From Blepharisma japonicum (Eukaryota; Ciliophora; Heterotrichea; Heterotrichida; Blepharismidae), in NCBI GenBank assembly GCA_949751835.1, contig CATKHK010000096.1:91536-155535 (forward strand): 64,000 nucleotides of DNA. Reading direction: 5' to 3'. The position numbers and the translations under genes were made by a program. The notes under the pieces were generated by a model. That model was not told the DNA's origin. It was given only the letters and a program-made list of their open reading frames with translations, and ran no database searches. Each line of letters starts with the position of its first letter. Within the stretch, counting starts at the first letter, position 1. This document shows, piece by piece, positions 21,590 through 64,000 of this stretch.

Positions 21590-21955
21590 ACACCAGACAC
21601 CCAAACTCTTTACTTTGAACTCACTGTAGCTTCAACATATTCCACATTCCAGACACCTAAACTGACTTTTACTGTAAGTGGAACCGATAATAATATTTTT
21701 ATTGCCCCTGCTTCTCAAACTCTTTCAATTTCTTCTGATATTCCTACATCATCAGCCACTTTGACTTTATCCCCTAGCACTCTTACTGGTACTTCAGTAA
21801 TGATTACAGCCAAATTCAGCCAAGACGCGGCTATATATTGGAGACTTACCTGCTATGAGACTCCAGCACTTACTTATTCTAAGCTTAAGTCACAAACCCA
21901 AAGTCCCATATCTCTTAACTCTAATTTGGCAAGCCCTGATCAAAAGCTCGCTTGC
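21590..21955 (+). pseudogene. Orphan fragment of a gene C-like surface protein
   Basis: About 122 codons in one open frame match gene C near 38215-38570 (DTQTLYFELTV, SSDIPTSSA, LTLSPSTLTGTSV, ALTYSKLKSQTQS). Resemblance to C is greater than to A or B. Homology stops at CAAAAGCTCGCT, just before the left edge of duplication copy 2. There is no start, signal peptide or C-terminus. Confidence 0.75.
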
Positions 21956-35800: not shown

Positions 35801-38800
35801 TCTGTATCTTATACTTACGGAAGATCAACAGTTGCTATTACAGAACTAACTCTATCTCCTGCTCCTTCTTGCACCACTTCTAGTGTTTCAGCAGCAGGAC
35901 CAGACTCTGTAAATATATCAGGAACCTTCTTCTTTACCACATCAGTTATAATTCCTGCAAATGGACTAATTTTATTCACTATGAACAATCTTTGGACATG
36001 GCCTTCCTCGAGCTATACTTGTAATGGGTTTGCATGCTCTTCTGCAGCATTCTCTAGTTCAACTTTGACAATTATTGTTTCGGAAGATATTCCCGCAGGA
36101 TCTTATAATGTAGGATTCTCTGGAGCTCTACCACCAATTTATAATGGAGCTACAAATTGCTTTACAGCTCTGAGAACTCAAACAAGTAATTCGAATACAA
36201 TTGAGTCTTGAATTTCTGATGGCAGTTATCAAATATATTTAAGTCCTGCTTCCTCACTTGGAGCTTCCAATGGTCTCACTATTTCTGCCTATCCTAATGT
36301 TGCAGGCTTATTAGCTGATCTTTTGCTTTCATTTAGGGTAACCAAGAAAGTTCCAGCATCTGGAATTATAACTATTACTTCTCCTTCTTCTCTTACTTGG
36401 TCTTATTCAACATATTCCAATATTCAGGACTATTGCTGGACAAATATTGTTTACACTTCCTGCCAGATTACTTCATCATCTACTATCGCTATTACTTTAT
36501 CAGCTGATTTAGATACTACAACAACCATTCAAATTTACTTGGACCGTGCAATCACTTTTTCTGTTTCAGGAAGCTCAGGCAATTTCTTTATAGCTGCCTC
36601 TTGGTCATCTATTATAATTATTGATGATACATCTACTATCTTTGGAGGAGCAAGTCTTAATGTTGGTGCCTCTGTTGCTGCTCTTATGACACTGAGTTCA
36701 ATTACAGCTGATCTCTTAATAGCTGGAGAAAAGGCTACTTATACATTTACTTTCACCTCTGGAGTCGCCGTTGCAAGTGGAGATTACTTTTATATTCAAT
36801 TCCCAAGGCAATTTGATGCATATATTGGCGATGCTGATAATACTTACAGTGATTGCTTGCCAAATAATTACTATCTTCCTTGCAGCTCTAGTATTCTTGG
36901 CAATCATATTACTTGTATGGCAGACCACTGGTATCTTGTAGTATCTGGAATAAGCTCAGATTTGGCAGCTTTTAATGTAATAACTCTTACTGTTAGCGGT
37001 GTAAGAAACGCTCCTGTTGGTCAAACTGATTACTTTAATATGTGGCATTACAATTCAAATGACTCACTAGAGGCTTCAGTTTATTCATCTGTTTTTATAA
37101 CTACTGCTCTTCCTGTTAGCAATATTGGCCTAAGGCCTATTTTAGTTACAAACCATACATTAGCCGCCCTTACAACCTACAGCTTTGATTTCTATCCAGC
37201 TATAAGCTTATCTACCAGTTTCAATTCAGATAAAACCTTCAACATAGTGTTCCCTCAACAGTTTAATCTCAATTTATACACTTCAGGATCGGTGTCTTGC
37301 ACCGCAATGATTTATGATGAAACTTCAACCACATCTCCAGCAGGAGCAAGCTGGGCTAGTGGTGCTACTTGTTCTGCAAATAGAAACCTAGTCACTTTTA
37401 GTATCCCAAATGGTTTAAATCTTTATGTAAAAACAACTGATAGAATCCGCATTTCACTGTTGAACGTTAACAACCCACAATTTGGATTAACAAGAAGTAC
37501 AGGTTGGGACATTGCACAAACCAATTATGGATCTTCATACTCTTACTGGTCTAATAAGTTTGATTTGTATGTGGTAGACACAGCCAATAAAGTTCTTTAT
37601 GGAAAAACTTATGGAGTCCTTAACTCTGGCTATCTAGGGTATATCCAAAGCGTTGCTACAACAATTGATGTTAATGGATACAATGGAATAACCAAGGCTC
37701 GCCACATTCAACTCTTACCTGGCCAACAAAGTGGAGATATTCCAATTAGTATCATCTCAGGGTCAAATAACATTGGCTTAAAATCACAAAAATTGGTGCT
37801 GACTCCAAAAATAAATTCAAATTATCCAGACACAGGCAACTATATTAAATTCACCTCAATCTACCACAAATTCGTTGCATTCCAACTGGATGCAGAAATC
37901 ATGTTCAGAGTATCAGCTGCAACAGGAAGTGCTCTTGGCATTTATTATATTGACTGGACCACAGAAGAAACACACCAAGATGGAGTTATTAAAGATATTT
38001 ACAGTTCTCCTCTTAGCGTTATGGTGGAAGTTTGCAATATTCCAACTACTGGATCAATCGCAATCACAGTTGATACTCTCCCAACCCTCTATCCAGGATA
38101 CACTAGTATTCCAATCTCAGTATACCTTGAAAGTGCCCCAGCCACCAATCTTATTGTTACTCCATCCATTTCCGCTTTTAACATTACCGCCAACCCTACA
38201 AGCCTTACATTTGCACCAGATACCCAAACTCTTTACTTTGAACTGACTGTCACTTCAACATATTCCATAACTCAGTCTCCTATACTATCTTTCAATATAA
38301 GTGGAACTGATTCAGCTGTTTTTATTGCCCCTGCTTCTGTAACTCTTATAGTTTCTTCTGATATTCCTACATCATCAGCCGCTTTGACTTTATCCCCTAG
38401 CACTCCTACTGGTACTTCAGTAACGATAACAGTTAATTTCAGCCAAGACGCAGTCATTTATTGGGGACTTACCTGCTATGGGACTCCAGCTCTTACTTAT
38501 TCTAAGCTTAAGTCACAAACCCAAAGTCTCATATCTCCTAATTCTAATTTGATAAGCCTTGATCAGCAGCTTGCTGCTGAATATCAGTCTACAGAAACCC
38601 ACATTGATTATACTCAAGACACTGATATTACTTCATTCTTTAAGAGAATACATCAGAAGCACTGTAATACTTTATGAACCAATGCAGTCGTGAGCAGATA
38701 TAAGTATGGACGAGTAAGTATAACTTTAAATTGGCTTATGGATGGCACTCACTATAATTTCTATGCATATGCTGACAATAAAATCAGCAGCTATCAACCT

Positions 38801-39616
38801 GCTGCAACTATCGACTTTACCACCTCAGCTGTTCAATCAGTCTATTCCACATCAGTTACTTTCACAAGAGATATTTCAGCAAGTCTTGATGATAGCATCA
38901 GAAGAAGTTTAGCAAAGAACATTGGAGTTAACCCTGATTGGCTTATTTCTAAAGGACGCACAACCCCTTCAACATCTAATGAATCCTCAAGATTCCTTCC
39001 AACCTCAACCATAGTTTACTCAAGATTTAACTACATAATGATTTATGACAGAAGAAAGCCAAGCTATTCACCTTCTTATATTCTGAATCAGCTTGACCAA
39101 ACTGGAGCCACTAATGATTTGACAGAGATAACTAATGTACCTCCAACAGCTTTTGGAACCCCAGCTTTAGTGTCAACTGGTACAGTCCCAACCTGGAAAG
39201 CTGGCCCATTTCAGACCGAATTAGGGGACACAAATGCCACTTTCAACGCCACCTCTTCTCAAGATGGTATTGTTTGTGTCTCTTGCACTGAACTTAGCTC
39301 AACTGAAATTACTTATGCTTGGCAGGTTGTTGATGGATTAGATGCTAAATCTAATAAAGCATATGGAGCATGCGTCAATGCTACAGCAGCCGCGACAGTA
39401 TCTCTTACAGTTTCAGGTTTAACTCAAGCTACAATTTATACTTGCTATTTTACTGCTTGCAATAGCTACCCAACTCATTCTTATTGTATTGATGTCAGCT
39501 CTAATGATACAACAGTCACATATTTGAGAAATATTTCGCTTAAAACGATTGAATCAAAAACAGATGCAGCGATTTGTCTTAGCTTTTTGGCAGCTATCTT
39601 TTTAATCTTTTATTAA
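32843..39616 (+). CDS. Giant surface protein gene C (2257 aa, signal peptide, putative GPI tail)
   Basis: Single frame from ATG 32843 to TAA 39614-39616; TGA is Trp at many conserved positions. The start gives MEQIRYTTK before a hydrophobic NLISFIILFQLVTCLKFG signal peptide. In A and B the ATG lies where C has ACG, so the longer N-terminus is needed here. Then FDPGRIVW, WWSDID, GFMGTGI, repeated VPASGIITI / YIQFPRQFD / FNIVFPQQF strand motifs, LLPGQQSGD, FAPDTQTLYFELTV, AWQVVDGLD and a terminal hydrophobic AAICLSFLAAIFLIFY. More of its Trp codons are TGG than in A and B, giving a 784-codon stretch without any TGA (36323-38677). It is a diverged third member, downstream in the same orientation. 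Function unknown; a surface location is inferred. Confidence 0.9.
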
Positions 39617-41824: not shown

Positions 41825-42084
41825 GACAATTAATAAAGATGCATATTCTAAAAACAATTGTTTAATCAATCATAAATTGCTTTTAAGTATAGATTGATTT
41901 ATTAGAAGTGTCGTTCCATTATTTTTATATATTAGAAATTCTGAAATAATTATGCTATTAATGAAGGAAATTTTTTGAAATTGATGATCTTCTTTTTTGA
42001 CGAATATACACTTTTATAATTCAAATTATTTGGTATTTAATTATAATTAATGACTTTTATAACTAAGTTAAATTGAATGTAAGT
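41825..42084. other. AT-rich spacer, nothing recognised
   Basis: Short spacer between the D1 upstream block and surface-gene fragment P1. No frame or repeat was seen that adds information. Confidence 0.4.
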
Positions 42085-43440
42085 AAGATATCGGAAAGCT
42101 GGATTGGAATGTTAGGATATGCGTTGATGGTCAAAGTAGAAGTGCCAGTTGTTACAGAAGCAGAAAAAGTAATGGATGTTTGATATGAGACTCCGTTAGA
42201 TGTACTCCAGGTCTCAACTCTATTGCTACCCCTTGTTTTGATTGAAAGCGCTGCTAAAAAGTCTTTATCAATACTAGTAGACCCAATGTATGTTGGTTGC
42301 CTAACTTACATCAAAGTTACAGTCTGTGACCTGACTTAAGAACTGTAGTCATTGTGTCTGCTAAAGTTGAGCGAAGAAGGAATAGTTGCCGATAATGATG
42401 ATAATTTCATCGGCAGGTCCATGAACTATCAATCGTAAATTCCTGAACCACCTTTAGGCTCTGCTATAGTCGTGTAAACAAAAATTATTGAAAGGTTAAA
42501 AGATTCTGAACTAGCTCCAATAATAGCTCCTGACTTGAAATTAATGTAGGGGCAGCTAACGTGATTGCAGCTACTCTAACGGTAAATAGAATAGAGTTAA
42601 AGAAAGCTTCAGAATAAGAGTAAACACCTCCCAGTACTGATGATGTAACCCTCACTCCCCAATTGCTTTCTCTATCTGCAAAAAACAACTTGCGCCAAAG
42701 ATTGGTGGCTTTTAAGTTACAAGCAATTCCAGTAATAGGATATATAACTCCTTATATGACATAGGCCATAATAAATACACCGACTCCAGTATCACTTAGC
42801 CCAGATAATATGCCATAGAAACAGAAGAAATCAAATCAGAGGCTGTATTAAATACAACAGAATATGAAAGAACTGACGAAAATGTAAATCATAATGAAAG
42901 GCCAATTCCAATAATATCATTTATGGATATTACAGCTGTATAGTTTCGTTATCAAGTTTATTAGAAATAGTAATATCTTCGGGAAATTCCAATAGCCCAT
43001 GTGAGGCTGAGGCTTTTACAGAAAGTGGTGATGCAAAATCAAAATTTATAGCGTTTGAGACCATCCAGGTTTGAATAATGGTAGAGAATTTGTCTAAATG
43101 AAGTATCAAATAATTTTGGAACGTAAGATTTAATATTTAAACTTGTTTCTGCTAAGAAAGTAATTCCACTATGGAAATCAGTATTTATTTTTGACAGCTA
43201 TTCTTAGATCTTCAAGAGTAATGTTAATATGGTTGTTGAGACTGTAAAATTAGCATTAGCGTAGAGATAGAAGATAAATAGCGGTGCCAAGGGTGAGAGT
43301 TTCAGGATTGTTAGTTGTCATAATGCCATTCACATAAATCCTGACGTCGAGCTGTATCAAGCTTCAATTTCAATATCAATTGCTTATGATTGAAAGAAAA
43401 GTCAACCGCTTGATTAGAATATGAGAGATATGCAGAATAT
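42085..43440 (-). pseudogene. Surface-protein pseudogene fragment P1
   Basis: Reverse-strand remnant that corresponds roughly to residues 720-1160 of gene E-like proteins. Visible pieces include AIDIEI near 43370, a degenerate SNFD region near 43040, GGVYSYSEA near 42620 and TINAYPN at about 42110. Many frameshifts and stops. The Tyr codon that is TAA in E, F and G is still TAT here, so it derives from a longer-form ancestor. Confidence 0.75.
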
Positions 43441-43489
43441 GCTAACCTTTCAATAATTTTGGTTTCGCCATGTCTTTTGTAGTGTCTAA

Positions 43490-43770
43490 AGGCAGGCTCA
43501 TTACTGTGTTAGCAACTGAAGTTACTTCACCAACAAACTTGGGTCTACTAGTATTGATAAAGACTGCTTCACAGCGCTTTCAATCAAAATAAGTGGTGGT
43601 AATACAATTGAGGCTGGAGTACATCTAATGAAGCCTCATATCAAACATCCATTACTTCTTCTGCTTCTGTAACAACTGGCACTTCTTCTTTGACCATCAA
43701 CGCATATCCTAAAGTTCCAATCCAGCTTTCTGATATTTTGCTTACATTTTCTTTAACTTAGTCAAGTCAT
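43490..43770 (+). pseudogene. Surface-protein pseudogene fragment P2
   Basis: Plus-strand remnant matching gene E near 49909-50170: STDKDCF-like segment, SYQTSITSSASVTTGTSS, TINAYPKVP and SDILLTFSLT, then TAG. It is the inverted counterpart of the end of P1 (42090-42230), forming an inverted repeat with a loop of about 1.4 kb. Confidence 0.75.
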
Positions 43771-44277
43771 TAATTATAATTAAAGAATAGCTTTATATTA
43801 AAATAATTAAACTTGAAAAAGTTATGAATTTCATGTCCTCAGGGCTTGCACAATCTTCCACTCATTCTTCAAATGTTCCCACTTACCCAAGACTCTGTTC
43901 CTCCTCTAATGTTTAGTGCAAATTCAAAAAAAACTGCTTTAAGAGGCATATATACAATTATCGTAATAACATAAGTAAGAGCTTTAGTAGGTTCCTAAGA
44001 AAAGCTGTCTTATGGACTTATTGTGGTTATGAATAAAGGCTTGACCTGCAAACAATATTAATAATCGTTCTCTCATCCTAAAAATTATCAGAAATTTGAA
44101 TTAAATCTGATCTAATGCTTCTGCATCCGAGCCATAAATTTATATTTTTTGAGATATAGATTTTGCACAAAAAGATTGCATCGAAAATAATTAGATTCTA
44201 AAATATATTGAATAGCCCCAAGTCTAAAATCTCCGTATTATTGAATTTATCATATTAATAATAAATATAATGAATTT
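43771..44277. repeat. Intergenic region with a short copy of the dispersed upstream repeat
   Basis: About 43900-44090 resembles the dispersed block seen at 46140, 55070, 58200 and 63050: GGCATATATACAATTATCGT, then CTTATGGACTTATT and AATAAAGGCTT. No gene follows it directly; D2 ends at 44278 on the other strand. Confidence 0.5.
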
Positions 44278-46020: not shown

Positions 46021-46673
46021 ATTTAGGCAAGAGAAATCGATTTTCAAAAATTATGAGCTGATCCTGCTCTAAGTAGAGTTTGAAAGATTTTCAGAAAATA
46101 TTATTGATTATACGCTTTATTAGATCTCACTTAAGCTTTTTGATTTGCCTGCTTCTATGTTGCATTTTAGTGATATTAGTCTGAATGTCCTTAAATGCAC
46201 AAATCATCATAATAAGTTTAACAAAGGCTTCGTGTTGGAATTCTTCTTCAATATACTTTTCATGGACTTATTTCTATCGATAATAAGTCTTTATCTAAGA
46301 AAGAGGATGATCTATTCTAGAATCATAGCCTTAATAAAATTAAGTTGAGCAATTAACGAATAAATACAGCTGCAAACTAGTATATGAGGACTTAATTGCT
46401 ACTTTGAGGTCATTTCTTTATTTCAAGTAAATAACTCATTTTAATCTTCTTTTATATATATGAGCTTATGTCTTTCAGATTTTTAAGACTTTGTTTTCTT
46501 TATAATCCATTTAGCAGCTTGTTTTTAAATGCTTTCAGGTTGCAATAATTGAGCAAAATTCTTGATAATTGAGGAATATCAGTATGCTTTCAAATAAGTT
46601 AAATGATAAAGAAACCAAGCAAAGTTTCTTACATTTTAATTAATTAAGAAAAAATAATTTGATAAATCGTAAT
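46021..46673 (+). promoter_or_regulatory. Upstream repeat block and 5' flank of gene E
   Basis: 46140-46440 belongs to the dispersed repeat shared with 55070 and 58200. 46450-46660 (TGAGCTTATGTCTTTCAG … AAAGAAACCAAGCAAAG) is closely shared with 58750-58945 upstream of gene G. Conservation next to two start codons suggests a promoter or leader. Confidence 0.55.
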
Positions 46674-49600
46674 ATGAAAAGCCTTGTAAGCTTTATAGCT
46701 CTTATTGGGCTGGCTTCTTGCTTTGCATTCGGATCATACGGTTCAAGCTTAGACCCAGGCAGAATAGTTTGGCCTAAAGATACTTGGTATAGCAACCCTA
46801 TTGAGCTTACCCAAACTAACACTGGACTAACAGTTATTTTGACAATTCACTTCAGACCTACCACTACTTTGACTGGAGCAACAGTTCAGATTATTTTCCC
46901 ATCAGCTTATTCTACAGAGCCAACAAAAACTGTTGTTGCTTCAAGTTGATCCAATTTACAGTCTGGCCAAGATACTAGCATTACCTATACTACAACTCTT
47001 CCAAGCGCAGGCATATATGGTCCATTTGGAATAGTCACTAGAAAAGGTCCAACAGGTCAGATTGCTGATGCAAACTACAATTTTGGATGTATTGTTGTCA
47101 CCAGCTCAGTATCATCAAGAAGTCTTGCTGTCTCTAGAGCATCAAACAGCATTATCACTACAATCAATACTGACAACACCCTTGAATTTCAGTTCTCCTT
47201 ATCCTTTAGTCTTTGGGCTCATGATTTGATTGAAATTGTTCCAGATACAGATTGGGTTTTAAAAACAGGCCCAACATGCAAATCAGTAGGAGACTCAAAC
47301 CCTATCTTAGGTCCTAACAGCACAAATACCAGGAACTTACCTTGCTCGTTAGGACTAAAAAGCTCAACAACAGCTGGGGTGGCAACTGGAGCTGACACTA
47401 CTGTTGCTTCAGACAGTATTTATATTTATGGAATTGCTTCAGATACTTATGTATCTCCTGCCTTAAATTCATATACAATTAAACTTGAAGTTAGCTACAT
47501 TATTTCACCACCATTTGTTACTAGCTCAAGTAGCTGGACAGTTAATATTTGGAGATACGGAACCAATAATTTGCTTGCTAAATACACCACAAGCTTTGGT
47601 CCAGGATCTACTGCAGGATTAGCTACCTTCATAAGCTGGCAAAGTTATAACTTCCCTTCAAACATTGTAATGCAAAATCAAGTTATATTCACAAAGGTTG
47701 CAGTTGGTTTTAATAATCCTCTGCCTACTTTAAGCACTTTGACTGTTACTTTCAGTGGTGTTAATATATATGATACTATTTGGTGGTCTGATCTTGATAC
47801 TATCACTGAAATTTCTAATAGTGGATTATGCTATGTTACCCCAGCTATTGATGGAGCAAGCTGTGCAGCACCTGACGCAACAACTGCAACTGTGAAATTT
47901 GTTAAGGCACAAGTTAAAGGATCAGTATCTTTTGTGGTATTAAGCTACTTATCAGGAACAACTCCACAAGTTACTAAAATTACTACATACTACGGCTCAG
48001 GCACTAATGTTGTAGATCAAAGTGCAAGCTATCCAGGCTCACTTACAGTTAGAGCAGCCTCATCATCTGCTTATAAGATTCCTGATGTCGCTTTGCATGC
48101 TCTTGCAGCCGATTCTACAAGCTATCCAAAAATTGCCGCTGGAACTGCTCCAGCTCCATATACCATAGGTTCCTCAGGTAATGCAAATGGGCAAAACCAA
48201 GGAGGTGTCAAAGGCCAAGATATTTTTATTCGTATTACTCCTGGCAGTTCAAACACTTGGGGTGGTGATTCTGGTGTTGCAGCAAATGTCGTTTTATATT
48301 TCAACAGGGCAACTTCATTTGAATTTAATAATTTTGGCTCTGTTTATTTTGATAGCGGTCTTACTAAACATGATTACATTAATACTGCTTCTATATTTTC
48401 CTCAGCAGCTGCCGCCATGACAGCAACTACCAATGGTATTACTCCTGGACTCTCAACAAGCAATCAAATATCTTTGTCATTCTCTACTTTAACTGATGGC
48501 GTTGCAAGTGGATCCTACTACTTTTTAAGGTACTCTGATTCATCCAAAACAAGCTTACCTTTTATAGCATCCAATTTAGCGACCTTTTATGAAATTTGGG
48601 CTGTTGCATCCTATACTGTGGATCAAATAGTCACAACTGAAATTGGTAGCTCAGTAATTTCAGTACTTCCTCAAATGACTTCAACGAACTCTTATATTTC
48701 AAAATTCTATACGATGCCTCTTTGTAAGGATAATCTCAATGGAATTCCAATAGTTAACCATTTTGAATCAATAAATACAGACTTTGACTTTTCTGCTCAA
48801 TCATATGCAATTGATATTGAAATTAATGCTGGATACAGCTCTACGACTGGATTCATGGGTACTGGTATTATGGGAACTAACAATGCTGGAACTCTTACTC
48901 TTGGTACAAGCCTTTGATCTTCTATCATTACCGCAACTGCTACTTTTGTAGTCAAAGAAACCAAGCTAACAATTACTCTTAAAGGTCTTGGAGCAATTTC
49001 TATGTCATCGCAAAAAATAGATACTTATTTCCCAAGTGCAATAGCTTCTTTAGCAGAAACAACTTTAACTATTAATTCTTATTTTTACTTTGCAAAACCA
49101 TCTGATACTACACTTAGACAAGTTCTCTACCAAAATGCATTTGCCTGGGCGGTCTCATCTGTTTCAAATTTTGATGTTGTATCAACTGGTGTGGCACAAA
49201 CATCAGGCTCAACATGGGCTATTGGAACTTCTGCAGGTGTTACTATTTCTAATATACTTGATAGCGATACTATAGCAACTGAAATATTAAATGGTGATAT
49301 TGTTGGAATTAGCCTTCCATCAGGATTTATATTCTCATCAGCACCTTCATACAGTGTTGTTGTTGATACTGCTGCTGCTGTAACTTCCCCTGCTTCTACA
49401 ACATTTTATCTGGGCTCTTCAAGTGATACTGGAGTAGGCGGATTTATTATGGCCTATGGCACATGGGGCGCTGCAACCCCTACTATTTATGGAATTGCAT
49501 ATAACTTAGCAGTTACAAATCTTCAACCACCAAGCTACTCTTTTGCAGCTGGAGGAAGCGCATGGGGCATGTGGGTGGCATCATCATGATTGGGAATTGC

Positions 49601-50129
49601 TTGCTCTTATTCTGAAGTTTATTCTAGCTCTATTCTATCTGCCGTTGCAGTGGCTGCAACAACGTTAGCCACCCCTACATGCACTTCAAGCTCTGGCACT
49701 ATTATTGGGGCTTGTGCAGACTCTGTTAGCCTTTCAATGAATTTTGGTTTCACCACGACTATTGCAGTGCCTAAAGGTGGCTCAATAGAATTTACTATGG
49801 ATGGTTCATGAACTTGGCCTTTATCATCTTCAAGCTACTCATCATCATTTCCAGCAACTTATTCCCTTGCTGGCTCAGCCTTAACAATCATACTGATTGC
49901 TGACCTTCAGGCAGGCTCATATACTGTTGTAGCAACTGGAGTTACCCCACCAGCAAATGCTGGATCTAATAGTATTGATAAAAACTGTTTCTCAACGCTT
50001 TCAACCAAGACAATTTTCGGTAATACAATTGAGACTTGGAATACTGCCAACGAGGTATCATATCAAACATCTATTGCTTCTTCTGCTTCTGTAACAACTG
50101 GCACTTCTACTTTGACAATCAATGCCTAA
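46674..50129 (+). CDS. Short-form surface protein gene E (1151 aa, no C-terminal anchor)
   Basis: Single frame from ATG 46674 to TAA 50127-50129. The start is chosen because MKSLVSFIALIGLASC is the signal peptide aligned with A and B. Then LDPGRIVW, WWSDLD near residue 369, GFMGTGIMG near 724, and a final SVTTGTSTLTINA. It corresponds to residues 1-1137 of A; the next codon, Tyr in A, is TAA here. After the TAA the frame still resembles the family for about 15 codons, so the stop is a mutation of a longer ancestor. With no hydrophobic tail the product would be secreted rather than anchored. Most Trp codons are TGG, with TGA at 46947, 48915, 49587 and 49809. About 90 percent similar to G. Confidence 0.88.
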
Positions 50130-50442
50130 CCTAATATTTTAAATCAGTTTCCTAATATTTTTTTTCCATTTACTTTAAACATTATCCTTGCACTTGAGGG
50201 GTATGATTAAATATTTATTACATTAAAATAATTTGATTTTTTGACATTCCGTATTAACTTTTAAAGCCACTATAAGCTCAAGCATCTATTCTATAAATTT
50301 CTATGAGATTTTAACCACATTCACGTATTTTATGATCAATAATTGAACTAAATTGAATTCTTGCATCCTACGTCCATCTATCAAAGTAGCTAACAATTCA
50401 TCTTTAATAGAAATTTTATATTTCAGCAAGAATCTTAGACAT
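50130..50442. other. Spacer between genes E and F
   Basis: The first 60 bp or so are decayed coding sequence beyond the TAA of gene E. The rest is AT-rich and does not share the upstream block of E and G. Nothing else seen. Confidence 0.4.
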
Positions 50443-51351
50443 ATGAAAAGTCTTGTAAGTTTTATCGCTTTTATGGAGCTTACTTCTTGCTTAGCATTTT
50501 GATCATATGATTCAAACTTAAATCCAGGCAGGATAACTTGGCCTAAAAAGACTTGGTATAGCAACCCTATTGAACTCACTTACACAAACACTGGATCTAC
50601 AGTCACCTTGACAGTTAATTTCAGACCTACTACTACTTTGACTCGAGCAACAGTTCAGATCATTTTCCCTTCAACTTATTCTACAGAATCAACAAAAACT
50701 GTAACTGCTTCAAGTTCGTTCAATTTACAGTCAGGCCAAGATACTAGCGTAACCTATATAACAACCCTTCCAAGCGCAGGCATATATGGTCCATTTGGAA
50801 TAGTCACTAGGCATCAAACTACTGGTAAAATTGTTGATGCAAACTACAATTTCGGCTGCATAGCAGTTACCAGTTCAGTATCATCAAATTCTCTTACAGT
50901 TACTAGAGCGTCAGAGAGCATTGTCACTACGATTAATACTGACAACACCCTTATATTCACGTTCTCCTTATTCTTCAGTCTCTGGGCTCATGACATTATT
51001 GAAATTATCCCAGATGCAAATTGGATTCTAAAAACAGGCCCAATCTGCAAATCATTAGGAGCCTCAAACCCTCTCTTAGGCCCAGACAGTAAAAATGCCA
51101 GCAACTTGCCTTGCTCACTTGGGCTAAAAAGCTCATCAACAGCTGGGGTGGCAACTGGGCCTGACACTAATGTTGCTTCAGACAGCATTTATATTTATGG
51201 GATTGCTTCTGATACTTACGTATCTGGATCGTCTTCATATGTCATTAAGATTAATATTAGTTCTATTACCTCACCAGCATTTGTTACTAGTACAAGCAGC
51301 TGGGTTGTTAACATTTGGAGATTCGGAACCAACAGTTTGTTTGCTAAGTAA
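50443..51351 (+). pseudogene. Surface gene F, 5' segment (302 codons), cut by an inversion
   Basis: ATG 50443 opens with MKSLVSFIAFMELTSC and runs through LNPGRITW and SLWAHDIIEIIPD to VVNIWRFGTNSLFAK and TAA 51349-51351. In E and G the next residues are YTTSFGPGS. Those residues are instead found at 54354 on the opposite strand, starting the other half of the gene. The segment is otherwise intact, with TGA as Trp near 50500. The product, if made, would be a secreted 302-residue fragment. Confidence 0.85.
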
Positions 51352-51885
51352 AGATTGCAAGAACGTTATTGGAATCATAAATCAGGAAGTAAGAAAGTTT
51401 GCTCGAGAAATTGTAAGAATTAGAAGAAAATTGACTCCTTCATGTGATAACCATAAATAATAGAAATAATAATAATAATAATAAATAATAATTCCTGTGT
51501 CGGCATGTTGCCCCTTTTGAAATTCCAATTTTTCACTTAACAAGTGCTATGGCTCCATCATTATATGACAGAAGTCCGTACTCTAAAGGAGATTTTTAAT
51601 GATCCTGTAACTGGAGCATTGAAACTTGAGACCTACCAATCCATCTATCGGCATGCCGCTCCTTTGCAATGTCAAATTTTTATTTAGTACGTACTGTTTC
51701 GTCCAATGAAAAATTGATTATAAAATCATTAAACTTTCCACCTCTATGAACGATATATGAGTCTTTTAAAATATATAAGTTAAATTAAATATATGCAAGA
51801 TATCGGCAAGCTGTTTTTAAAAGCTAGCTTATGCTTTGATAGTCAATGTAGAACTGCCAATTGTTACAGAAGCAGAAGAAGTAAT
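51352..51885. other. Former 3' flank of gene F inside the inverted segment
   Basis: Not related to the surface family from 51352 to about 51790. A short open stretch up to 51460 (GIINQEVRKFAREIVRIRRK in one frame) is of unknown origin. There is an AAT microsatellite at 51465-51492. Two imperfect copies of TCGGCATG followed by CC and TTTG occur near 51500 and 51650. 51800-51885 is decayed coding sequence after the gene F stop. Confidence 0.45.
51465..51492 (+). repeat. AAT microsatellite
   Basis: About nine AAT units with one interruption. Confidence 0.8.
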
Positions 51886-54378
51886 TTACGTTTGGTATGA
51901 AGCCTCGCTAGAAGTACTCCAGGTCTCAATTGTATTACCGTTGCTTGCCTTGGTTAAAAGTTCTGAGAAACAGTCTTTATCAATACTATTAGACCCATTG
52001 TTTATTGGTGGCGCAACTCCAGCTGCTACCACAGTGTATGAACCTGCAATAAGATCTGCAGTCAGTGTGGCTGTTAAGGTTGAGCCAGAGAGTGCCCAAG
52101 TTGCTGAAATTGAAGGTGATGAATAACTTTCTGGTGAGGATGGCCAGTTCCATGAACTATCCATCACAAATACGATTGAACCACCTTTAGGTACTGTAAT
52201 AGTAGTGATGAAGCCAAAAGTCATTGAAAGGTTAACAGAGTCTGCACTTACTCCAATAATGGTTCCAGAGCTAGAAGTGCATGTAGGGGTAACTAAAGCG
52301 ATTGCAGATATTGTAGCAGTTGACATCGAGTTAACATACAATTGAGAATACTTGCAATTTGCTCCAAAACCTGCTATATCCGCAACTCATACACCAAATT
52401 TGCTACTTCCACTTGGAATAGCGTAGTTTGGAGGCATAAGATTAGTAACTGTAAGGTCAAAAGCAACAGTATCTGAGGGACTAGAAGTTACAGCACCCCA
52501 TGTGTGACCAGAAGTGCCAAAAGCCATAATGAATCCACCTGTGCCAGTGTCACTTGAAGAATTAATAAAATATGTTGAAGGACTAGGAGAAGCTCATGCA
52601 CCATTAATTGTTTCAATAAATGTAGGGATTGTTGAAAAAGTATATCCTGTTGGGAGACTGATTCCGATATAGTCGCCATTAACTATAGAAGCTCCACTCT
52701 GTTTAAGGGCTTGAGAAATGGTTACACTTTGAGCAGTGCCAATATACCAGGATGATCCTGAAGTTTGTGCAGCTCCTGTTGATGTAACATCAAAAGATGT
52801 CGGTCATGTGTTTACAGTTCATACTTCTGTATTTTGGTAAAGAACATGCCTAATCGATGGATCTGTTTTAGTGTAATAAAAGTAAGTATTAACGATTAGA
52901 GATGTTTGAGTTAAAGTAGCAATGGCGCTTGGCAAGTAAGTGGTAACCTTTGATATTCCATATATCGTAGTTCCAAGATTTTTAAGAGTTATTGTTAGCA
53001 AGGAAGTTGAAACTTTAAAAGTTGCTTTTGCAGAAGAAGCAGTTGACGAAAAGTGGGTGCCAATAGTCAAAGTTCCAGCGTTGTCTGTTGCCATAATGCC
53101 AGTGCCCATAAATCCTTTATTAAAGTCATATCCTTCATCAATTTCTATGTCAATTGCATATGATTGAACATAAAAGTCATAGTCAAAGTTTAATGGTTCA
53201 AAGTAGTTAACAATAGGAATTCCATCTAATTGATCATTGCATACGAGTAATGAATAGAGTTTACTTCTAGTAGTTTGAGGAAGCACAGATATGACTGAGC
53301 TGCCAATTTCAGTCGCAGATGAATAGGTTGCAATTGCCCAGATTTCATAAAAAGTGCCTATGTTGGATGCTACATAAGGTAAGCTTGTTTTTTGTGATCC
53401 AGCATATTTTATGATGAGATAGTTGCCAGGAGCACATTCGTCAGAGGAGGATAAGAATGTTACAGATACTTGATTGCTAATATAGGTTGAAGAATATATT
53501 GTAGGACTACTATTAACTATATCACGATCAGATGCTGTTGATGATTCTAAATTTGTAGCAGATTTGATATAGCAAGTTGCTATAACTTCATAGTCAATAT
53601 AAACAGAGTTAAAAGTATCAAATGAAACTGAAGATGCTTTGTTGAAGTAAAAAGCTAAGTTTGCTTCAACACCACCTGCTCCCCCTCATGCATTTGAGCT
53701 ACCTGGAGTAACACGGATAAAGATATCTTGACCTCTTTTTCCTGCTTGGTTCTGATTAGTTGCTGAAGTTAGATAATATGGATCAGGAGTATTCCCAATA
53801 TTAAGTTGAGGATATTGTGTGGTCTCAGAAGCAAGAGCGTGTAAAGAAAGATCAGGAATCTTATACAGAGAAGATGAAGCAGCTTGAATTGTAATGAAGC
53901 CTGGATTGCTCACACTTTGATCTGCAACTGATAAATCATAATAATAATAATAAGTAGTAATTTTCGTAACTTTTGGAGATGATCCATAGAAATAGCTTAA
54001 TACCACAAATGAGACTGATCCTTTAGCTTGGGCTTTTGTGAATGTTACAGTAGCAGTAGTCGTGTCAGATGCTACACAGCTTGCACCACTAATAGTTGGA
54101 GTCACATAGCATAGTCCTCTAGCTTTCCCAGTTGTATTATCAGTATCTGATCACCAAATCGTGTTATATATATCTACAGAGCTGAAAGTAACGACCAAAG
54201 TGCTACCTGTGGGTAGAGGATTGCTTATTTTTACTGTAACCTTTGTAAATAAGACCTGGCCTACAACAATAGAATTTGAAGGATAATTTTGACTTTGCCA
54301 GCTTGTAAAAGTAGCTAATCCTGCTGTAGATCCTGGGCCAAAGCTTGTTGTGTATAGATTTTTATAAGCTTTAGTCAA
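51886..54378 (-). pseudogene. Surface gene F, 3' segment, inverted
   Basis: Open minus-strand frame with TGA as Trp, from the unrelated sequence near 54378 to TAA at 51886-51888. Homology starts at YTTSFGPGSTAGLATF (54354), exactly the residue after the end of the 5' segment. It then shows SSVDIYNTIWW, GFMGTGIMATD and SASWVI-type C-terminal blocks ending SSEASYQT. Upstream of 54354 there is no ATG and no family homology. The frame is fully intact for about 820 codons, so the break is recent. It has a TAA 20 or so codons earlier than E, and also a TAA at the Tyr codon that is TAA in E and G. Confidence 0.85.
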
Positions 54379-54499
54379 ATTTGGATATTTTATGATATCT
54401 AATCCAATATTTCTGCATTATTTTAATATTCTTCATTGTAAAATTTATTGATTTCCTTTCTTTCTAATAATTAATGCAATCGTATAAAACATATTGTTA

Positions 54500-55620
54500 A
54501 TTAAAATCTTTATTATTACCAATAAAATTATGCTTGATTTTCCAGCTAATATTAAAATCTTGGATGCTCTATTAAAATATTAATCTCAGAAGACACTTAC
54601 TCAATGTTTTATCTTTGAGATTAAATTCTGCTATCTCATTCTGTGTTCAAGTGAAATAAATCTTATCTTTGAATCTGACTATATCTGATGTCACAATGTG
54701 CCTTCCAGAAATTCTTCCAACCTTTTATCATCATCTAATGCTATTGATTTCGCATTGATAAATATCTCCATCTCTCAATAATTTATATGATAATTTTTAT
54801 TAGTTTCTATCATAAATAGCTATAATTCTAGGTTTAAATCAGAATTTTGTAGAGCAATTATGCAATAAAAGATTATTTTTAACTAAAAAAAATACTCTAT
54901 TGCCAGTAAAAAGAATAGTTTTATTCTTGATAATTCATTGCGAAACCTAAAATTTTTCGAATCAATTTTTTGTGAGATCATAATAAAGCTTTTTGATTAT
55001 GAATTTTGGAAAAAAGCAGAGAAAAAGTAATTGAAACTCTCAACAAATAGAGGGGCTAGACTTACTCATTAATTTGTTTCTATATTGCATTTAAAGAGAT
55101 ACTGAGTTTAAATGTCTTCCAAAGGCAGATATAATTATCATAATAAAGCCAAACAAGGGTTTCGTATTGAAATTTCTGATGTAATTTGTTTTATTGACTT
55201 ATTTTTATCAATAATAAAGGCTTCACCTATAGAAGGATGAATATTCCAGGATCATAACCTCCTTAAAAGAAGGTTGAGTGATTAACTGGAATAAATGCAG
55301 AAGCACAACCCATTAATAATCGAGGGAGTTTAATTACTTCTGATAAAGTTATTTCTTCTAAATTTCAAGTAAATAGCTGAATCTCCTTTAATATATATGA
55401 GTTTATGATTGCGAGATTTGTATGATTTTGTTCCTTTACAATCGATTCAGCAGCTTTCTTCAAATGCTTTCAGGTCGTAAATAAAGCACAAATATTTGCG
55501 ATTACTGAGGAATATCAGTATGCTTTTTAATAAGTTAAGCCATAAAGAAATCAAACAAGTTTCTTGCATTTTAATTATTTAAAAGAATTTCAAACGATTC
55601 AAAAACTTACGAAATGAGAG
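54500..55620 (+). repeat. Segmental repeat X, copy 1
   Basis: Matches 57781-58727 in order: CAATAAAATTATG, AATGTGCCTTCCA, ATTGAAACTCTCA, TTTCTATATTGCATTT, ATTCCAGGATCATA, TTTCAAGTAAATA and TTTCTTGCAT. Its right half is the dispersed block that lies upstream of gene E. No surface gene follows this copy. Confidence 0.7.
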
Positions 55621-57780
55621 ATGGAGAACCAAGCCATATAACTCAGCACGCTTATAGCGAGTGAAAATTGCACAACAGGTGAGGCTATGGCTTGCCAAAT
55701 TCTATTGACAAGCTAGCAAAGTCAAGCAGTTGGGTCTGAATTTGCCACTTAAAGAGTTAGCTCATTACCCAGAAATCGGTAAGCCAAATGATTTAGCTTC
55801 TGTTCAAGTTCGGTTCAAACTTCACACAATAGTATATCTAAGACCTAATTTCGAACTTAATAAAAGTTGTGTTTATCTATTAGTCATTTAATGCTAATCT
55901 TTAATTATTTGCATTTATTACTTTTAGAAAGATGCAAAAAGAAGAATGAAAGCTGAAAGAGAGTTTTCAAATATAAAGCAGAGACAGAGCATAAACAATA
56001 AAAAGAATAAAAATTACGAATAGAGTTAGAATAAAATATCAAGAATGAAAATCAAAACGTTTGAAGCGAATTAAAAGGAATATTGGGATCGATTTTTATA
56101 GGGAAACAAATTTTTATTATTCCAACTTTTAGAAATAGTAATGGATAACATTGATATCATTACTGGAATCAAAAAACAGTTTATCTTGAAGTTCCAAAAA
56201 ATCAAAAATTTGATTAGGAAGTTTAGTGAATTTTTAATACATCGATATTAATTCCCATTATGGTCTTTGACATAAGCAAGAATCCTAACTGTGTGCTAAA
56301 ATTCTAAAATGTTTAAATCAAGGTAGATGAAGACTTCTAAGATTCTTAGTAGCAAGCTTTATATGATAGATATCTACTCTTTCATATGAATTGTGCTATC
56401 TATGATTGAGCTACCATTCAGCTCATATAGGATTTGAAATACTTCAAGCCATATGCACTATAGATCATAAAGGCCAAATTAATCGATGAAATATATGTAC
56501 AGCTTTTAGTTTTAGAGGAGTATCAAGATTTTAAAAGAAAAGTCTAGCTAAACTGGGAATAAGTAGAATTTATTTATTGTGATTACATATTTTGCACATG
56601 AAGGCTGAGTTATAGAATATATTAAATTTCCTATTAAAAGGGGAACGATTTATGATACAAAAGTCATATAAAACCGAAAGCTGACTATTTTGAGAAAGAC
56701 TAGTAATTATAAAGAAAAAATTTTTATCTTGATAATATCTCAGGTTATAAAATATTACAAAGAATGCAGGCTTCTAAAGTAAATCTCGTCTATAGAACTT
56801 AGTATCTCCTAATAAGAGAGTTGAACAAAATTTATTACTACTTGTTTTGCCTTTATTTCCCATATTTGTGAGTGATCAAAATCATAGTAAAGATTTAATA
56901 GAGGTCTTTCCTTCTGTATTGAATTCAATAGAATGGAAATATTCAAATTTATTAAATTTTTTAAACAATAAAGCAAAATGAATTTTATCAATTGTATTAA
57001 ATAAGAAATGATATAAAATTATTAATCAACGTTTTCAGCGCTTAGATTAGTCCTCTGCTTTTATATCTGATCTTGCCTCCTTATTGCAACCCTATATGCA
57101 TTGATTAGTATTCCCATTAGCCTTTTTTGTTGCATTGCTCTCTCTCCATTTTTCTCAAGATTCTGCTCTCAAAGGCTCTTTTTTTATATTAAATTTTTTA
57201 TTAAAAAATTCACTCTTTTCAAATAAAAAGGACTCTCAAAAGCCTTTTGCTCGACATAAGTATCAACAAGAAGGGAATTATTTTAAATTATCTTGAATTT
57301 TTACTTTGCATTCTCTCTTGTAGCTTTAATCGTGATAAACTTAAGCTCGACCAATATTGAGGGATTTGACTATTTTCAGCTAAAAATTAATTTCTTATTG
57401 AATCTTCTCATCTTCTTTATCTTCAGCCTTTACTATCCCTCAAATTTATTTATCAGTCTTTCGCATAAAAGTTAAAAGACCTCGATATTGGGCTTTAAGA
57501 TATTTCAATTTCTGTATTATTTTTTCTTCCTTATTGCAATTATTACATAATCTTCTACCTTGGTCTGTTTTTATCCTCAGCCTTATTCTTTATTTAGAAT
57601 TAGCTATGGCTTTTTCTTTTGCTTTTGCTTTGAAAGGCTTTCTTAGTGATTTTAAAATCAATTTTTCATTTTCTAAATTTCCTTTATTGATAATCCAAAT
57701 CAAATTAAAAATATTTAACTTGATTTCAAAATTAAATTTCAACTGTTTCAAAAATTTGATTTTTTGGACCTAAATTTATA

Positions 57781-58727
57781 ATTGATAGTTAAAAATCATT
57801 ATTATTCCCAATAAAATTATGACAATTTCAATCTAATATTAAAAATCTTGATTTTTCTATTGAAAATGCTAATCAGACTCAAACTTTTAACTCTGCGATA
57901 AAATAAATCATCTCATTCTATGTCAACTGAAATATCTTACTCTGATCCTAACTAACTATATAAGATACCAAAATGTGCCTTCCAACAGCTATCCAACTTT
58001 TTGTCATCATCTGATGCTGTTGATTTTCGCTTTCATAAATATTTCTCAGTAATATATTATGAAGCAGGTAATCTTTCAAAAGCAATCTATTGAGATGAAG
58101 AGATAATAAAATTTTGTGTTTTAGTTTTGAACAAATAATAAGTAACCTTGGAAATAAACAGAGTGAGGATAATTGAAACTCTCAGCGGTGAGAGAGGCTT
58201 GACTTGCACATCTGTTTCTATATTGCATTTTATCGATACTTGGTCCAAATGCATTCGAAAGGCATATACATGATTATCATAGTGACTAAACAAGAAATTC
58301 CCTTATGTAAATTGCTTTATGGACTTATTTCATCAATAATAAAGGCTTTACCTATATGAGGGCAATATATTCCAGGATCATAGTCTCTATAAATGAAGAT
58401 TGAGGATTAATTAATAAATACAGAACACAGCTTCTTAATAATTGCTATTGATAAGGTCATTTCCTTCTAAATTTCAAGTAAATACTCATCTGCATCTTCT
58501 TCTATATTTATTAGTTCATGACTGCCAGATTCGTATACTTTTTCTCTTTATAATCGATTCAGTAGCTTTCTTCAAATGCTTGCAGATCTTAATAATTTCA
58601 CAAAGTTCTCGGTGATTGAAAAATACCAATGAGCTTTCTAATAACTAATAAATTGTTTGATAAAAAAGTCAAACAAATTTCTTGCATATTAATTACTTTA
58701 AAGAATTTCAAAAAATTCAAAAACTAT
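57781..58727 (+). repeat. Segmental repeat X, copy 2
   Basis: Diverged and slightly shorter copy of 54500-55620, directly upstream of the gene G flank. It carries no convincing coding frame. Confidence 0.7.
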
Positions 58728-59009: not shown

Positions 59010-62000
59010 ATGAAAAGCCTTGCAAGCTTTATAGCTCTTATTGTGCTTTCTTCTTGCTTTGAATTTGGATTATATAATTCAAGCTTAGACCCAGGCAGAA
59101 TACTTTGGCCTAAAGATACTTGGCATAGCAACCCTATTGAGCTTACCCAAACTAGCACTGGACTAACAGTTATTTTGACAGTTCACTTCAGGCCTACCAC
59201 TACTTTGACTGGAGCAACAGTTCAGATTATTTTCCCATCAGCTTATTCCACAGAGCTAGCAAAAACTGTTGTTGCTTCAAGTTGATCCAATTTACAGTCT
59301 GGCCAAGATACTAGAATTACCTATACTACAACACTTCCAAGTGCAGGCATATATGGTCCATTTGGAATAGTCACTAGAAACGGTCAAAGAGGCCAGATTG
59401 TTGATGCAAACTACAATTTTGGATGTATTGTGGTTGCCAGCTCAGTATTATCAAGAACTCTTACTGTCTCTAGAGCTGCAAGCAGCATTATCACTACAAT
59501 CAATACTGACAACACCCTTGAATTTCAGTTCTCCTTATCCTTTAGTCTTTGGGCTCATGATATCATAGAAATTGTTCCAGATACAAATTGGGTTCTAAAA
59601 ACTGGCCCTGTCTGCAAATCAGCTGGAGACTCAAACCCTGTCTTAGGTCCTAACAGCACAAATACCAGAAACTTACCTTGCTCGCTAGGACTAAAAAGCT
59701 CAACAACAGCTGGGGTGGCAACTGGAGCTGACAATACTGTTGCTTCAGACAGTATTTATATTTATGGAATTGCTTCAGATACTTATGTATCTCCTGCCTT
59801 AAATTCATATACAATTAAACTTGAAGTTAGCTACATTATTTCACCAGCATTTGTTACTAGCTCAAGTAGCTGGACAGTTAATATTTGGAGATACGGAACC
59901 AATAATTTGCTTGCTAAATACACCACAAGCTTTGGTCCAGGATCTACTGCAGGATTAGCTACCTTCATAAGCTGGCAAAGTTATAACTTCCCTTCAAACA
60001 TTGTAATACAAAATCAAGTTATATTCACAAAGCTTACAGTTGGTTTTAATAATCCTTTGCCTGCTGGAAGCACCTTGATTGTTACTTTCAGTGGTGTTAA
60101 TGTATATGATACTATCTGGTGGTCTGATCTTGATACTACCACTGGAATTTATAATAGCGGATTATGCTATATTACCCCAGCTATTGATGGAGCAAGTTGT
60201 GCAGTATCTGACGCAACAACTGCAACTGTGGCATTTGCTAAGGCACAAGTTAAAAGATCAGTATCTTTTGTGGTATTAAGCTACTTATCAGGAACAACTC
60301 CACAAGTTACTAAAATTATCACATACTACAGCTCAGGCACTAATGTTGTAGATCAAAGCGCAAGCAATCCAGGCTCATTTACAGTTAAAGCAGCCTCATC
60401 ATCTGCTTATAAGATTCCTGATGTCGCTTTGCATGCTCTTGCAGCCGGTTCTACAAGCTATCCAAAAATTGCTGCTGGAACTGCTCCAGCTCCATATGTC
60501 ATAGGTTCCTCAGGTTCTGCAAATGGGTACAACCAAGGAGGTGTCAAAGGCCAAGATATTTTCATTCGTATTACTCCTGGCAGTTCAAACACTTGGGGTG
60601 GTTTTTCAGGTGTTAGCAAATGTAGTCTTATATTTTAACAGAACAGCTTCATTTGAATTTAATAATTTTGGCTCTGTTTATCTTGATAGCAGCCTTACTA
60701 AAACTGATTACATTAATACTGCTTCTACATTTTCCTCAGCAGATACCTTCTTGACATCCACTACCAATGGTATTACTCCTGGACTCTCTACAAGCAACCA
60801 AATTTCTTTGTCATTCACTACTTCAACTGATGGTGTTGCAAGTGGATCCTACTACTTTTTAAGATTTTCTGATCCATCCAAAACAAGCTTACCTTTTATA
60901 GCATCCAATTTAGCGACCTTTTATGAAATTTGGGCTGTTGCATCCTATACTGTGGCTGGAATAAGCACAACTGAAATTGGTAGCTCAGTAATTTCAGTAC
61001 TTCCTCAAACGACTTCAACGAGCTCTTATAGTTCAAAATTCTATACGATGCCTCTTTGTAAGGATAACCTCAATGGAATTCCAATAGTTAACCATTTTGA
61101 ATCAATAAATACAGACTTTGACTTTTCTGCTCAATCATATGCAATTGATATTGAAATTGATGGTGGATACAGCTATACGACTGGATTCATGGGTACTGGC
61201 ATTATGAGAACTAACAATGCTGGAACTCTTACTCTTGGCACAAGCTTTTGATCTTCTATCCCTACCGCAACTGCTACTTTTGTAGTCAATGGAACCAAGC
61301 TAACAATTACTCTTAAAGATCTTGGAGCAATTTCTATGTGATCGCAAAAAATAGATACTTATTTCCCAAGTGCAATAGCTTCTTTAGCAGAAGCAAGTTT
61401 AAGTATTAATTCTTATTTTTACTTTACAAAACCATCTGATACTACAGTTAGACAAATTCTCTACCAAAATAAATTTGCCTGGACGGTCTCATCTGTTTCA
61501 AATTTTGATCCTAAATCAACTGGTGCGGCACAAACATCAGGCTCAACATGGGGTATTGGAACTTCTGCAAGTGTTACTATTTCTAATATACTTGATAGCG
61601 ATACTATGACAATTGTAATATCCAATAATGATATTATTGGAATTAGCCTTTCACCAGGATTTACATTTTCATCGACTCCTTCATACACTGTTATAGTTGA
61701 TACAGCTGCTCCTTTGGCTTCTCCTGCTTCTACAACATTTTATCTGGGTTCTTCAAGTGATACTGGAGTCGGTGGATTTATTATGGCTTACGGCTCATGA
61801 GGCTCTGCAACCCCTACTGCTACTGGAATTGCATATAACTTAGCAGTTACAAATCTTAAACCACCAAGCTACTCTTTTGCAGTTGGAGAAAGCACATGGG
61901 GGATGTGAGTGGCATCATCAACATTGGGAGGTATTTGCTCTTATTCTGAGGCTTACTCTAGCTCTTCTCTTTCTACTGTTGCAGTCGTTTCAACCACTTT

Positions 62001-62463
62001 AACTACCCCTACATGCACATCCAGTTCCGGTACTATTATTGGAGCTAGTGCAGACTCTGTTAACCTTTCAATGAATTTTGGTTTCACCACCACTATTGCA
62101 GTGCCTAAAGGTGGCTATATAGAATTTACTATGGATGGTTCATGAACTTGGCCTTTATCATCTTCAAGCTACTCATCATCATTTTCAGCAACTTATTCCC
62201 TTACTGGCTCAGTCTTAGCAAGCACACTGACTGCTGATCTTCAGGCAGGCTCATATACTGTTATAGTAACTGGAGTTACACCACCAGCAAATACTGGATC
62301 ATATAGTATTGCTAAAGACTGTTTCTCAATGCTTTCAACCAAGACAATTTCCGGGAATACAATTGAGACTTGGAATACTGCCAACGAGGTATCATTTCAA
62401 ACATCTGTTGCTTCTTCTGCTTCTGTAACAACTGGCACTTCTACTTCGACAATCAATGCCTAA
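59010..62463 (+). pseudogene. Short-form surface protein gene G, one 2-nt frameshift
   Basis: ATG 59010 gives MKSLASFIALIVLSSC, LDPGRILW, WWSDLD and so on, almost identical to E. At about 60614-60618 the sequence GTTAGCAAATG stands where E has GTTGCAGCAAATG, so two bases are missing. The original frame then ends at TAA 60636-60638 (503 or so residues in 542 codons of frame), while the family sequence continues in the next frame, open to TAA 62461-62463. The total length is 3454 bp against 3456 bp for E, so the 2-nt loss explains the whole difference. The downstream 1.8 kb keeps its frame and TGA-Trp codons, so the lesion is recent, a sequencing error, or a programmed shift. The final stop is the same TAA as in E. 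Confidence 0.85.
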
Positions 62464-63775
62464 CCTAATATTTTAAACCAGTTTGCTAATATCTTTTTCC
62501 ATTTACTTTATCTTAAGTGTAATTGAAAGTTTCATCTGAAAGACTGATCCAGCTTCCTTATTTGTCTATATATATTTTATTTAAGCGATAAAGATACTAG
62601 AGATCCTCAAGAGGTATTCTTCAAATTAATATTATTTTAGGTGCTTTGCACCAAAGAACATAAAGAGGGAAGAAGTGCGGGAACTCCGCACAGTTGCAAG
62701 AAGGTATGAAGGATCAGGTAGGAGCCTGCAGAGTGTTTGTGGAGTATGTTGCAATCATTGCGACAAGAAATGAGCATGAACTTTGTTAAGTTTTTGATTG
62801 GCCGATCTCGGTGGATGCGAATCGGTGATTGAATTAAAAATTCGAAATGGAAAAGAATTAGAATGACGTGCAACTTGGGTTTGCATCATGAGGATTGGAG
62901 TAGGTTTGAGTTTTTTGAGTGGATTTGAAAGATTAGAATTTTTTTTGAATTTGTGATTTAAAAAGAGAGAAGCAGGGCAAGATCCGCAGTAAAATTAAGA
63001 TTAAGAATATTATTCTTCAAAAAATTCACTGATCCTACTACTGTTCCTTCTCTAAATTTTGGCTCGAATTGCTAAAAAATGCCTTAAGCGGCATATACAT
63101 AATTATGACAATAATCTAAGTAGAACTTTCATAGGTTTCACTCAGAAAACTGTTTTATAGACTTATTTTAGTTATTAGTAAAGACTTCACCTGTAGTTAA
63201 TGTCAGTAATCGTGGTCTCGTAATCAAAAAAATTATTTACTTAGGAGTTTAATAATAGTTTTTATATTAAAAATATTTTTGCTTGCCCATGATGGTGTTT
63301 TTTTTTATAATAATTATTAAATATTGCTTAAAGACTGGTTTTTTAACGAAATTTTGAATGATAAACCTCATTTTTATATAGCTTTATTTTATAAAATTAA
63401 TTTGATTTTGGCAAATTCTCAAGAAAATTATTAAAAAGATATTGACAAGCTGATGCCCTTAAGGTAAATAAAGAAAAAATAAAGCTTTAGTCTACATTTC
63501 TTCCAGAAATAGAAAATCCCATCAAATAGTTTAGTGCTGAAATTAATTAAGGAATATGTGATTTCTGATGAATTGCAATTTATAAACCTATTAAACCTAT
63601 TAAATTGTGGCCATGAGACTATTTCAGTCTGACCTTTCCCGATTGAAACTAAACTTTTTCCTTATCTTCCATGCTTGTGTTGATCCCATCTTGCTTGCAT
63701 TGTTCATATTCTTTTTGGCTTTATTTTTATTTGTAATTGATAATTTTTTTCCGTTTTTCTTTTTAATTAATGTTT
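62464..63775. other. Intergenic region after gene G
   Basis: The first 60 bp are decayed coding sequence past the TAA. 62636-62990 is a patch clearly richer in G and C with short perfect hairpins. 63045-63240 is a copy of the dispersed block (GGCATATACATAATTATGAC, TTATAGACTTATT, GTAAAGACTTCACCTGTA). No gene is supported. Confidence 0.5.
62640..62691 (+). other. Two perfect short hairpins in a GC-richer patch
   Basis: GGTGC-TTT-GCACC at 62640-62652 and GTGCGG-GAACT-CCGCAC at 62675-62691. A third small stem CCGA-TC-TCGG lies near 62803. Could be a structured RNA or chance. Confidence 0.35.
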
Positions 63776-64000
63776 CTAACAGAGTATTATTAATATAACA
63801 TCTTGTATGGCACTGTGATTCATTACAGTTTGGATATATTCAGAAACTTCCAAAATTTTTAGAGTTATTTCTTCTTTCTGATCTGAAATTTCATCCTTTT
63901 TTTCTTCTTGTTTGATTTTATCTTTATGCCATGAATTTTCATCGCAGCATCCTATCATTAGATTTGAGCTATTATCTTCTAGTTTTTCAGTTGAATGCTT
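63776..64000 (-). CDS. C-terminal end of an unidentified gene entering from the right
   Basis: A minus-strand frame is open from base 64000 to TAG 63776-63778, 74 codons. It is rich in Lys, Glu and Asp (KQEEKKDEISDQKEEITLK) and ends VILIILC. The composition differs from shadow frames nearby. No family recognised and the start lies outside the window. Confidence 0.45.
   Translation of the reverse strand, partial: KHSTEKLEDNSSNLMIGCCDENSWHKDKIKQEEKKDEISDQKEEITLKILEVSEYIQTVMNHSAIQDVILIILC

Follow-up and report, generated by a model that had tools for sequence, protein, structure and literature searches.

A 3.0-kb inversion with TA at both break ends most likely splits one gene of a tandem secreted-protein family in a Blepharisma-like ciliate

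The window: The analysed window comprises 64,000 nucleotides (contig C96, positions 91536-155535) and lies at the right-hand end of a contig of 155,535 bp in a 45.2-Mb assembly of 224 contigs. It contains tandem members of one gene family. Gene E (46674..50129, + strand) is an intact paralogue of 1151 residues and serves as the reference, gene F follows it in two parts, and gene G lies at 59010..62463 on the + strand. G is 94 and 92% identical to E in nucleotides and carries a frameshifting 2-nt deletion near 60615, which is either an assembly error or the mark of a pseudogene. Long family forms of about 2250 residues occur at 13165-19941, 22648-29349, and 32843-39613, and on contig C162 at 26400-19609; their N-terminal half is shared with E, F, and G, which are short genes. 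C21, C37, C144, C77, C99, C4, and other contigs carry members that differ in length, with at least 41 matches including fragments. A Pfam search with four family proteins gave nothing significant, and a PDB search gave one weak match (E-value of 1). The AlphaFold model of residues 1-536 of E has a mean pLDDT of 58.7, too poor for a fold search, and consists mostly of beta strands following a signal-like helix.

Family fragments and a dispersed repeat are also found. The fragment pair at 42057-43760 is palindromic, with an antisense 3' half (42057-43405) and then a sense 3' end (43485-43760), and the stretches 42036-42297 and 43529-43784 are inverted repeats at 88%. An isolated fragment of 371 bp (21582-21952) is 85% identical to gene D. 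The dispersed repeat occupies contig ends, namely 63602-64000 of the window, C162:1-267, and C162:38374-38690, and has relatives on C113, C3, C104, C45, C168, and others. About 820 bp of it are common to C113 and C3 at 86%, and the C113 and C162 copies have a frame starting MKRRKHFTG. The repeat may link C96 and C162 as neighbours.

Gene F is in two parts on opposite strands. The 5' part (50443..51348, + strand) has a signal-like N-terminus and comprises 302 E-like codons with no stop in frame; tblastn with E gives 76.9% protein identity over residues 1-303 of E. The 3' part (51832..54354, - strand) was delimited by tblastn and codon scans and comprises 841 codons that correspond to residues 304-1151 of E, at 57.0% identity. 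The inverted segment runs from 51349 to 54354 and measures 3006 bp. AAG (51346-51348) is the final codon ahead of the break, and the reversed part opens with TAC, the reverse complement of 54352-54354. The counterpart in E reads AAA/TAC (slashes mark joins), and no residue is lost or gained in F. The initial annotation had placed the end of the 5' part at FAK and the next residue on the other strand with nothing missing; closer alignment agrees, with no junction residue absent. The dinucleotide TA stands at both break ends as it had described, at 51349-51350 on the left and at 54353-54354 on the right, where it forms bases 1-2 of the TAC codon on the - strand. Because the left TA is followed by A, the present order has a TAA stop directly after FAK.

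The present joins are GCTAAG/TAAAGA and GTGTA/TAGATT. Turning the segment back gives GCTAAG/TACACA and CTTTA/TAGATT, and E has GCTAAA TACACC. Positions 1-3483 of the re-inverted string align to 46672-50178 of E at 71.8% nucleotide identity, collinear over the full length, and the string is also collinear with G along the whole gene. Re-inversion thus restores one continuous homologous gene with an exact codon join. The expectation that it would restore the frame is borne out as far as an in-frame TAA at 51886-51888, a stop absent from the initial annotation, which lies 18 codons ahead of the stop position of E; up to that point the restored frame is collinear with E. The indels between F and E are all multiples of three, except for one gap of 5 nt in F and one of 2 nt in E, whose net effect is 3 nt. 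In the 3' part the first ATG comes only at codon 416 of that part. An open stretch of 36 residues at 51350-51457 has weak matches on C38 (E-value 4.5e-4) and C5 (0.008). No inverted repeat was seen up to 300 nt from the breaks, the score of 23 being matched or surpassed in 143 of 279 random pairs, which makes a repeat-driven inversion at the macronuclear level unlikely. The meeting of two unrelated truncations at one codon and in opposite orientation is judged to be far beyond chance. By these alignments, gene F is most likely a single gene broken by a genuine inversion of 3.0 kb.

The assembly is macronuclear, i.e., post-development. Large open reading frames on both strands are continuous if TGA is read as an amino acid, and opposite in-frame TGA tryptophan stands at 89 of 180 aligned non-TGA codons from seven family sequences, against about 2% tryptophan overall. 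Three tandem CCCTAACA repeats occur in at least 168 places (77 forward and 91 reverse) and in none of the reversed control; among the matches listed, many lie within 421 bases of a contig start and others form one high-coordinate cluster per contig. The account of Blepharisma stoltei in PMC9942806 gives TGA as tryptophan and CCCTAACA as the telomere repeat. Reading frames without any insertion extend over at least 3354 residues (10 kb) and over 2293, 2263, and 2238 residues, and B. stoltei is described as having 39,799 IESs on 41 Mb, about one per kb (PMC9942856). The tryptophan code, the telomere repeats, and the long insertion-free frames together indicate a Blepharisma-like macronuclear assembly that is already rearranged. 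An uninverted copy of F was not found in it among the best-scoring matches. The proposal that the segment awaits developmental rearrangement is therefore unsupported, since the DNA is the product of development, uninverted F was not found among those matches, and an in-frame stop lies inside the inverted part.

Gene F is mosaic in its similarity to E, being 82.0% identical before the join and 69.5% after it. The pairs E-G, E-H, A-B, and E-A have nearly even identities along the gene; A-D is less even (63.2 and 55.8%). The change point in F lies about 63 columns into the reversed part, with a 2-LLR support range of +40 to +82 against E and +43 to +82 against G, but of +53 to +535 against H. At the start of the reversed part, 47 of the initial 50 nt match E, G, or H, followed by 32 of 47 in the next window, and E-like similarity spans about 60 nt across the restored join. 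Since the step in identity falls inside the reversed part, the similarity to E continues across the restored join, and both halves would derive from one gene that was already mosaic. Judged from the alignments, F was most likely one such mosaic gene at the time of the flip, and its continuity before the inversion is well supported.

The downstream side of the inversion comprises intergenic sequence. About 430 nt of former downstream flank of F (51349..51778, - strand) moved with the segment, and in this flank 51705-51732 has matches at C162:33506-33533 and in the intergenic repeat at 57643-57670. The sequence now adjoining the inverted end is intergenic repeat b (54353..55600, + strand), delimited by blastn and a profile, with other copies at 57768-58725 and at C162 31316-30233 and 33371-32704. 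The reverse complement of 51705-51732 matches C162 33533-33506, which precedes repeat b there, over 28 nt at 93%. The local score of this match is 46 in the restored orientation versus 26-27 in the present one, the best shuffle scores 35-37, and none of 400 shuffles reaches 46 for either of two mutually homologous targets. Against C162 31700-31317 and the E-F intergenic region, the downstream match is equalled by 145 and 258 of 400 shuffles, respectively. The two downstream matches are 352 nt apart in the restored order versus 132 nt on C162, so that collinearity here is loose. The 30 nt to the left of the restored right-hand join resemble the paralogous contexts no better than random TA-ending 30-mers do, of which 595, 244, and 822 of 1500 are equally good. 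The 28-nt match supports the restored order, and the flip appears well supported on the gene side and moderately on the far side.

TA makes up 8.9% of the dinucleotides. Its presence at both ends of the F inversion has a probability of about 0.024 for random blunt breaks and of 0.10 given any 2-bp inverted microhomology; the chance microhomology inversion put forward in the initial annotation remains a good explanation at these values. A scripted survey took in ten more breaks in fragments of the family, from the window and from C162, where a random boundary touches TA in 25% of cases. Such broken copies lie at 42057-43760 and 21582-21952 of the window and at C162 35101-38299; the vicinities of window positions 42060 and 43760 are natural family ends. 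TA touches four of the ten break points (the end of fragment F', described below, C162 36447, C162 36453, and window 43431). In two it depends on the alignment end chosen (C162 35100-35106 and window 43485-43503), and in the remaining four it does not touch (C162 37468-37472 and window 43405, 21582, at a distance of 1, and 21935-21952). A binomial calculation by hand gives about 0.22 for four of ten, which is not significant, and about 0.02 for six of ten. The enrichment of TA at other family breaks is suggestive at most.

Fragment F': The second family copy that ends at the same TA is F' (C162:37471-38299, - strand; C162 measures 38,690 bp). It shares 91% identity with roughly the first 830 nt of the F 3' part, and its similarity stops within 0-2 nt of the TA of the F inversion. 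Beyond this end there are about 70 bp without a match and then the dispersed repeat up to the contig end at 38690; relatives of this terminal repeat occur on C113, C3, C132, C104, C87, C71, C39, C15, and C140. F' has gaps of 2, 1, and 3 nt relative to F, and F has one of 1 nt. The flank at C162 38300-38373 was compared with repeat b; four of the five pairwise targets are at chance level (475, 694, 696, and 975 of 1000 shuffles), and the fifth, C162b2, is equalled by 7 of 1000 shuffles. A profile of the four b copies reported nothing over this flank, which is not recognisable as repeat b. A second break at one site within about 2.5 kb is estimated to arise by chance in the order of 1 in 1000. 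Either the shared TA would be a hot spot, which a germline IES at that place would explain, or F' would derive from the inverted form, its flank lost at the join. Repeated breakage at the site would fit a germline IES or MITE.

The codon changes since the split of F and F' comprise 20 non-synonymous and 8 synonymous on the F branch, and 26 and 9 on the F' branch. The neutral opportunities are 3.16 to 1, and 9 of the 72 mismatches are not polarisable. Young family pairs have similarly high dN/dS values, 0.89 for A-B and 0.71 and 0.73 for two parts of G compared with E. The selection on F and F' thus gives no date for the inversion and was discarded as a clock.

The explanation favoured here, and held to be rather probable, is that one member of a tandem and rapidly changing secreted-protein gene family of a Blepharisma-like ciliate was broken by a heritable inversion of 3.0 kb. 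One break would have fallen in codon 304 of F and the other about 480 bp beyond the end of the gene, and both would have been rejoined with the DNA between them flipped. The product of F would now be an N-terminal fragment of 302 residues at most, and the 3' two thirds would be antisense with no ATG near the beginning. The event is ordinary in kind and probably inherited, and the germline order is presumably the same as the macronuclear one. For the joining chemistry, ordinary end joining with a 2-bp TA microhomology is put at about even. Small inversions with 1-3 bp of microhomology create pseudogenes in tandem gene families. A chance microhomology, however, leaves the end of F' at the same TA unaccounted for. 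That coincidence is covered by a possible but clearly less probable explanation, in which IESs of one family (e.g., MITEs) lay in opposite orientations at both TAs of the germline. One IES would have stood at the codon-304 TA and its relative at the downstream TA; recombination in the micronucleus would have flipped the 3 kb, and the hybrid IESs would still have been excised at TA, leaving a scarless macronuclear join. The same ancestral IES would account for the break of F'. The TA at both ends of F with nothing gained or lost fits this explanation, as do the loss of homology of F' at that TA with no flank relationship seen and the four clear and two alignment-dependent TA contacts among the ten further breaks over a base rate of 25%. 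It also fits the traits reported for B. stoltei in PMC9942856: TA bounds about three quarters of the IESs, about 70% lie within genes and are considered to be excised with precision, and both MITE IESs and palindromic IESs are plentiful. On the other hand, the gene-side site is TAC/GTA and not the TAA/TTA of the commonest MITE, four of the ten further breaks have no touching TA and the four that do are not significant, and one shared breakpoint is a single coincidence. The link to PiggyBac-type excision at TA ends made in the initial annotation thus survives only as a germline IES at these TAs as a possible site of rearrangement, and not as a pending excision. The broader proposition that germline IESs act as hidden recombination sites for scarless TA inversions and translocations, with the codon-304 TA of the F lineage used at least twice (F on C96 and F' on C162), is slightly more doubtful still.

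Three other explanations are far less probable. An error of development, with both TAs cut by the excisase, the segment rejoined in flipped orientation, and this form then fixed in the sequenced macronuclear population, is considered very unlikely. For B. stoltei, macronuclear-destined DNA is described as being erroneously excised at a low level with TA-type ends of the same kind (PMC9942856), but such a form would be expected to be a minority among many macronuclear copies, and uninverted F is missing from the best-scoring matches; the in-frame TAA of F and the end of F' at the same place also speak against it. Marginally lower still is the probability that there was no inversion and that two separate fragments of different family members now lie tail to tail. 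The drop in the identity of F to E, beside the nearly even E-G, E-H, A-B, and E-A pairs, and the mosaics of fragments in mixed orientation at C162 35101-38299 would suit this arrangement, but the fragments meet at one codon with neither overlap nor gap, and the identity drops some 60 nt into the reversed part and not at the join. An assembly error is just as improbable. The array is repetitive, with tandem paralogues E, F, and G and a right flank that is itself an intergenic repeat, and a dispersed repeat terminates the contig about 9.6 kb beyond. Against such an error, the 300 nt around the breaks contain no inverted repeat to mislead an assembler, copies of the right flank at other places have diverged from it (63 nt at 94% at best), and nothing elsewhere gives a long match to the left flank inside the flipped segment.

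The inversion of F documents the decay and reshuffling of a large gene family of secreted proteins in a ciliate. If germline IESs were indeed involved, "eliminated" DNA would shape the working genome and leave no trace there, and a new reading would be due for scarless rearrangements at TA in the macronuclear genomes of ciliates. A literature search by title and abstract opening found no report of macronuclear inversions at TA in Blepharisma, and the word "inversion" is absent from the main text of PMC9942856.

Comparison with known systems: The F inversion, preferred here as a heritable and ordinary one, resembles ordinary small microhomology inversions in its clean flip, its 2-bp microhomology, and the decaying family members nearby. 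It differs from them in that the same TA also terminates another family copy, which lies on a different contig. The TA-bound IESs of Blepharisma, as described in PMC9942856, are similar in their TA ends, base precision, and position inside a coding region; in contrast, the segment of F is flipped and kept, whereas IESs are removed. Scrambled, inverted macronuclear-destined segments of Oxytricha and its relatives, by the account in PMC7586852, share with F the reverse orientation and a short common bounding sequence. In those ciliates, however, the scrambled order belongs to the germline and the macronucleus carries the restored one, while in F the macronuclear order is the broken one.
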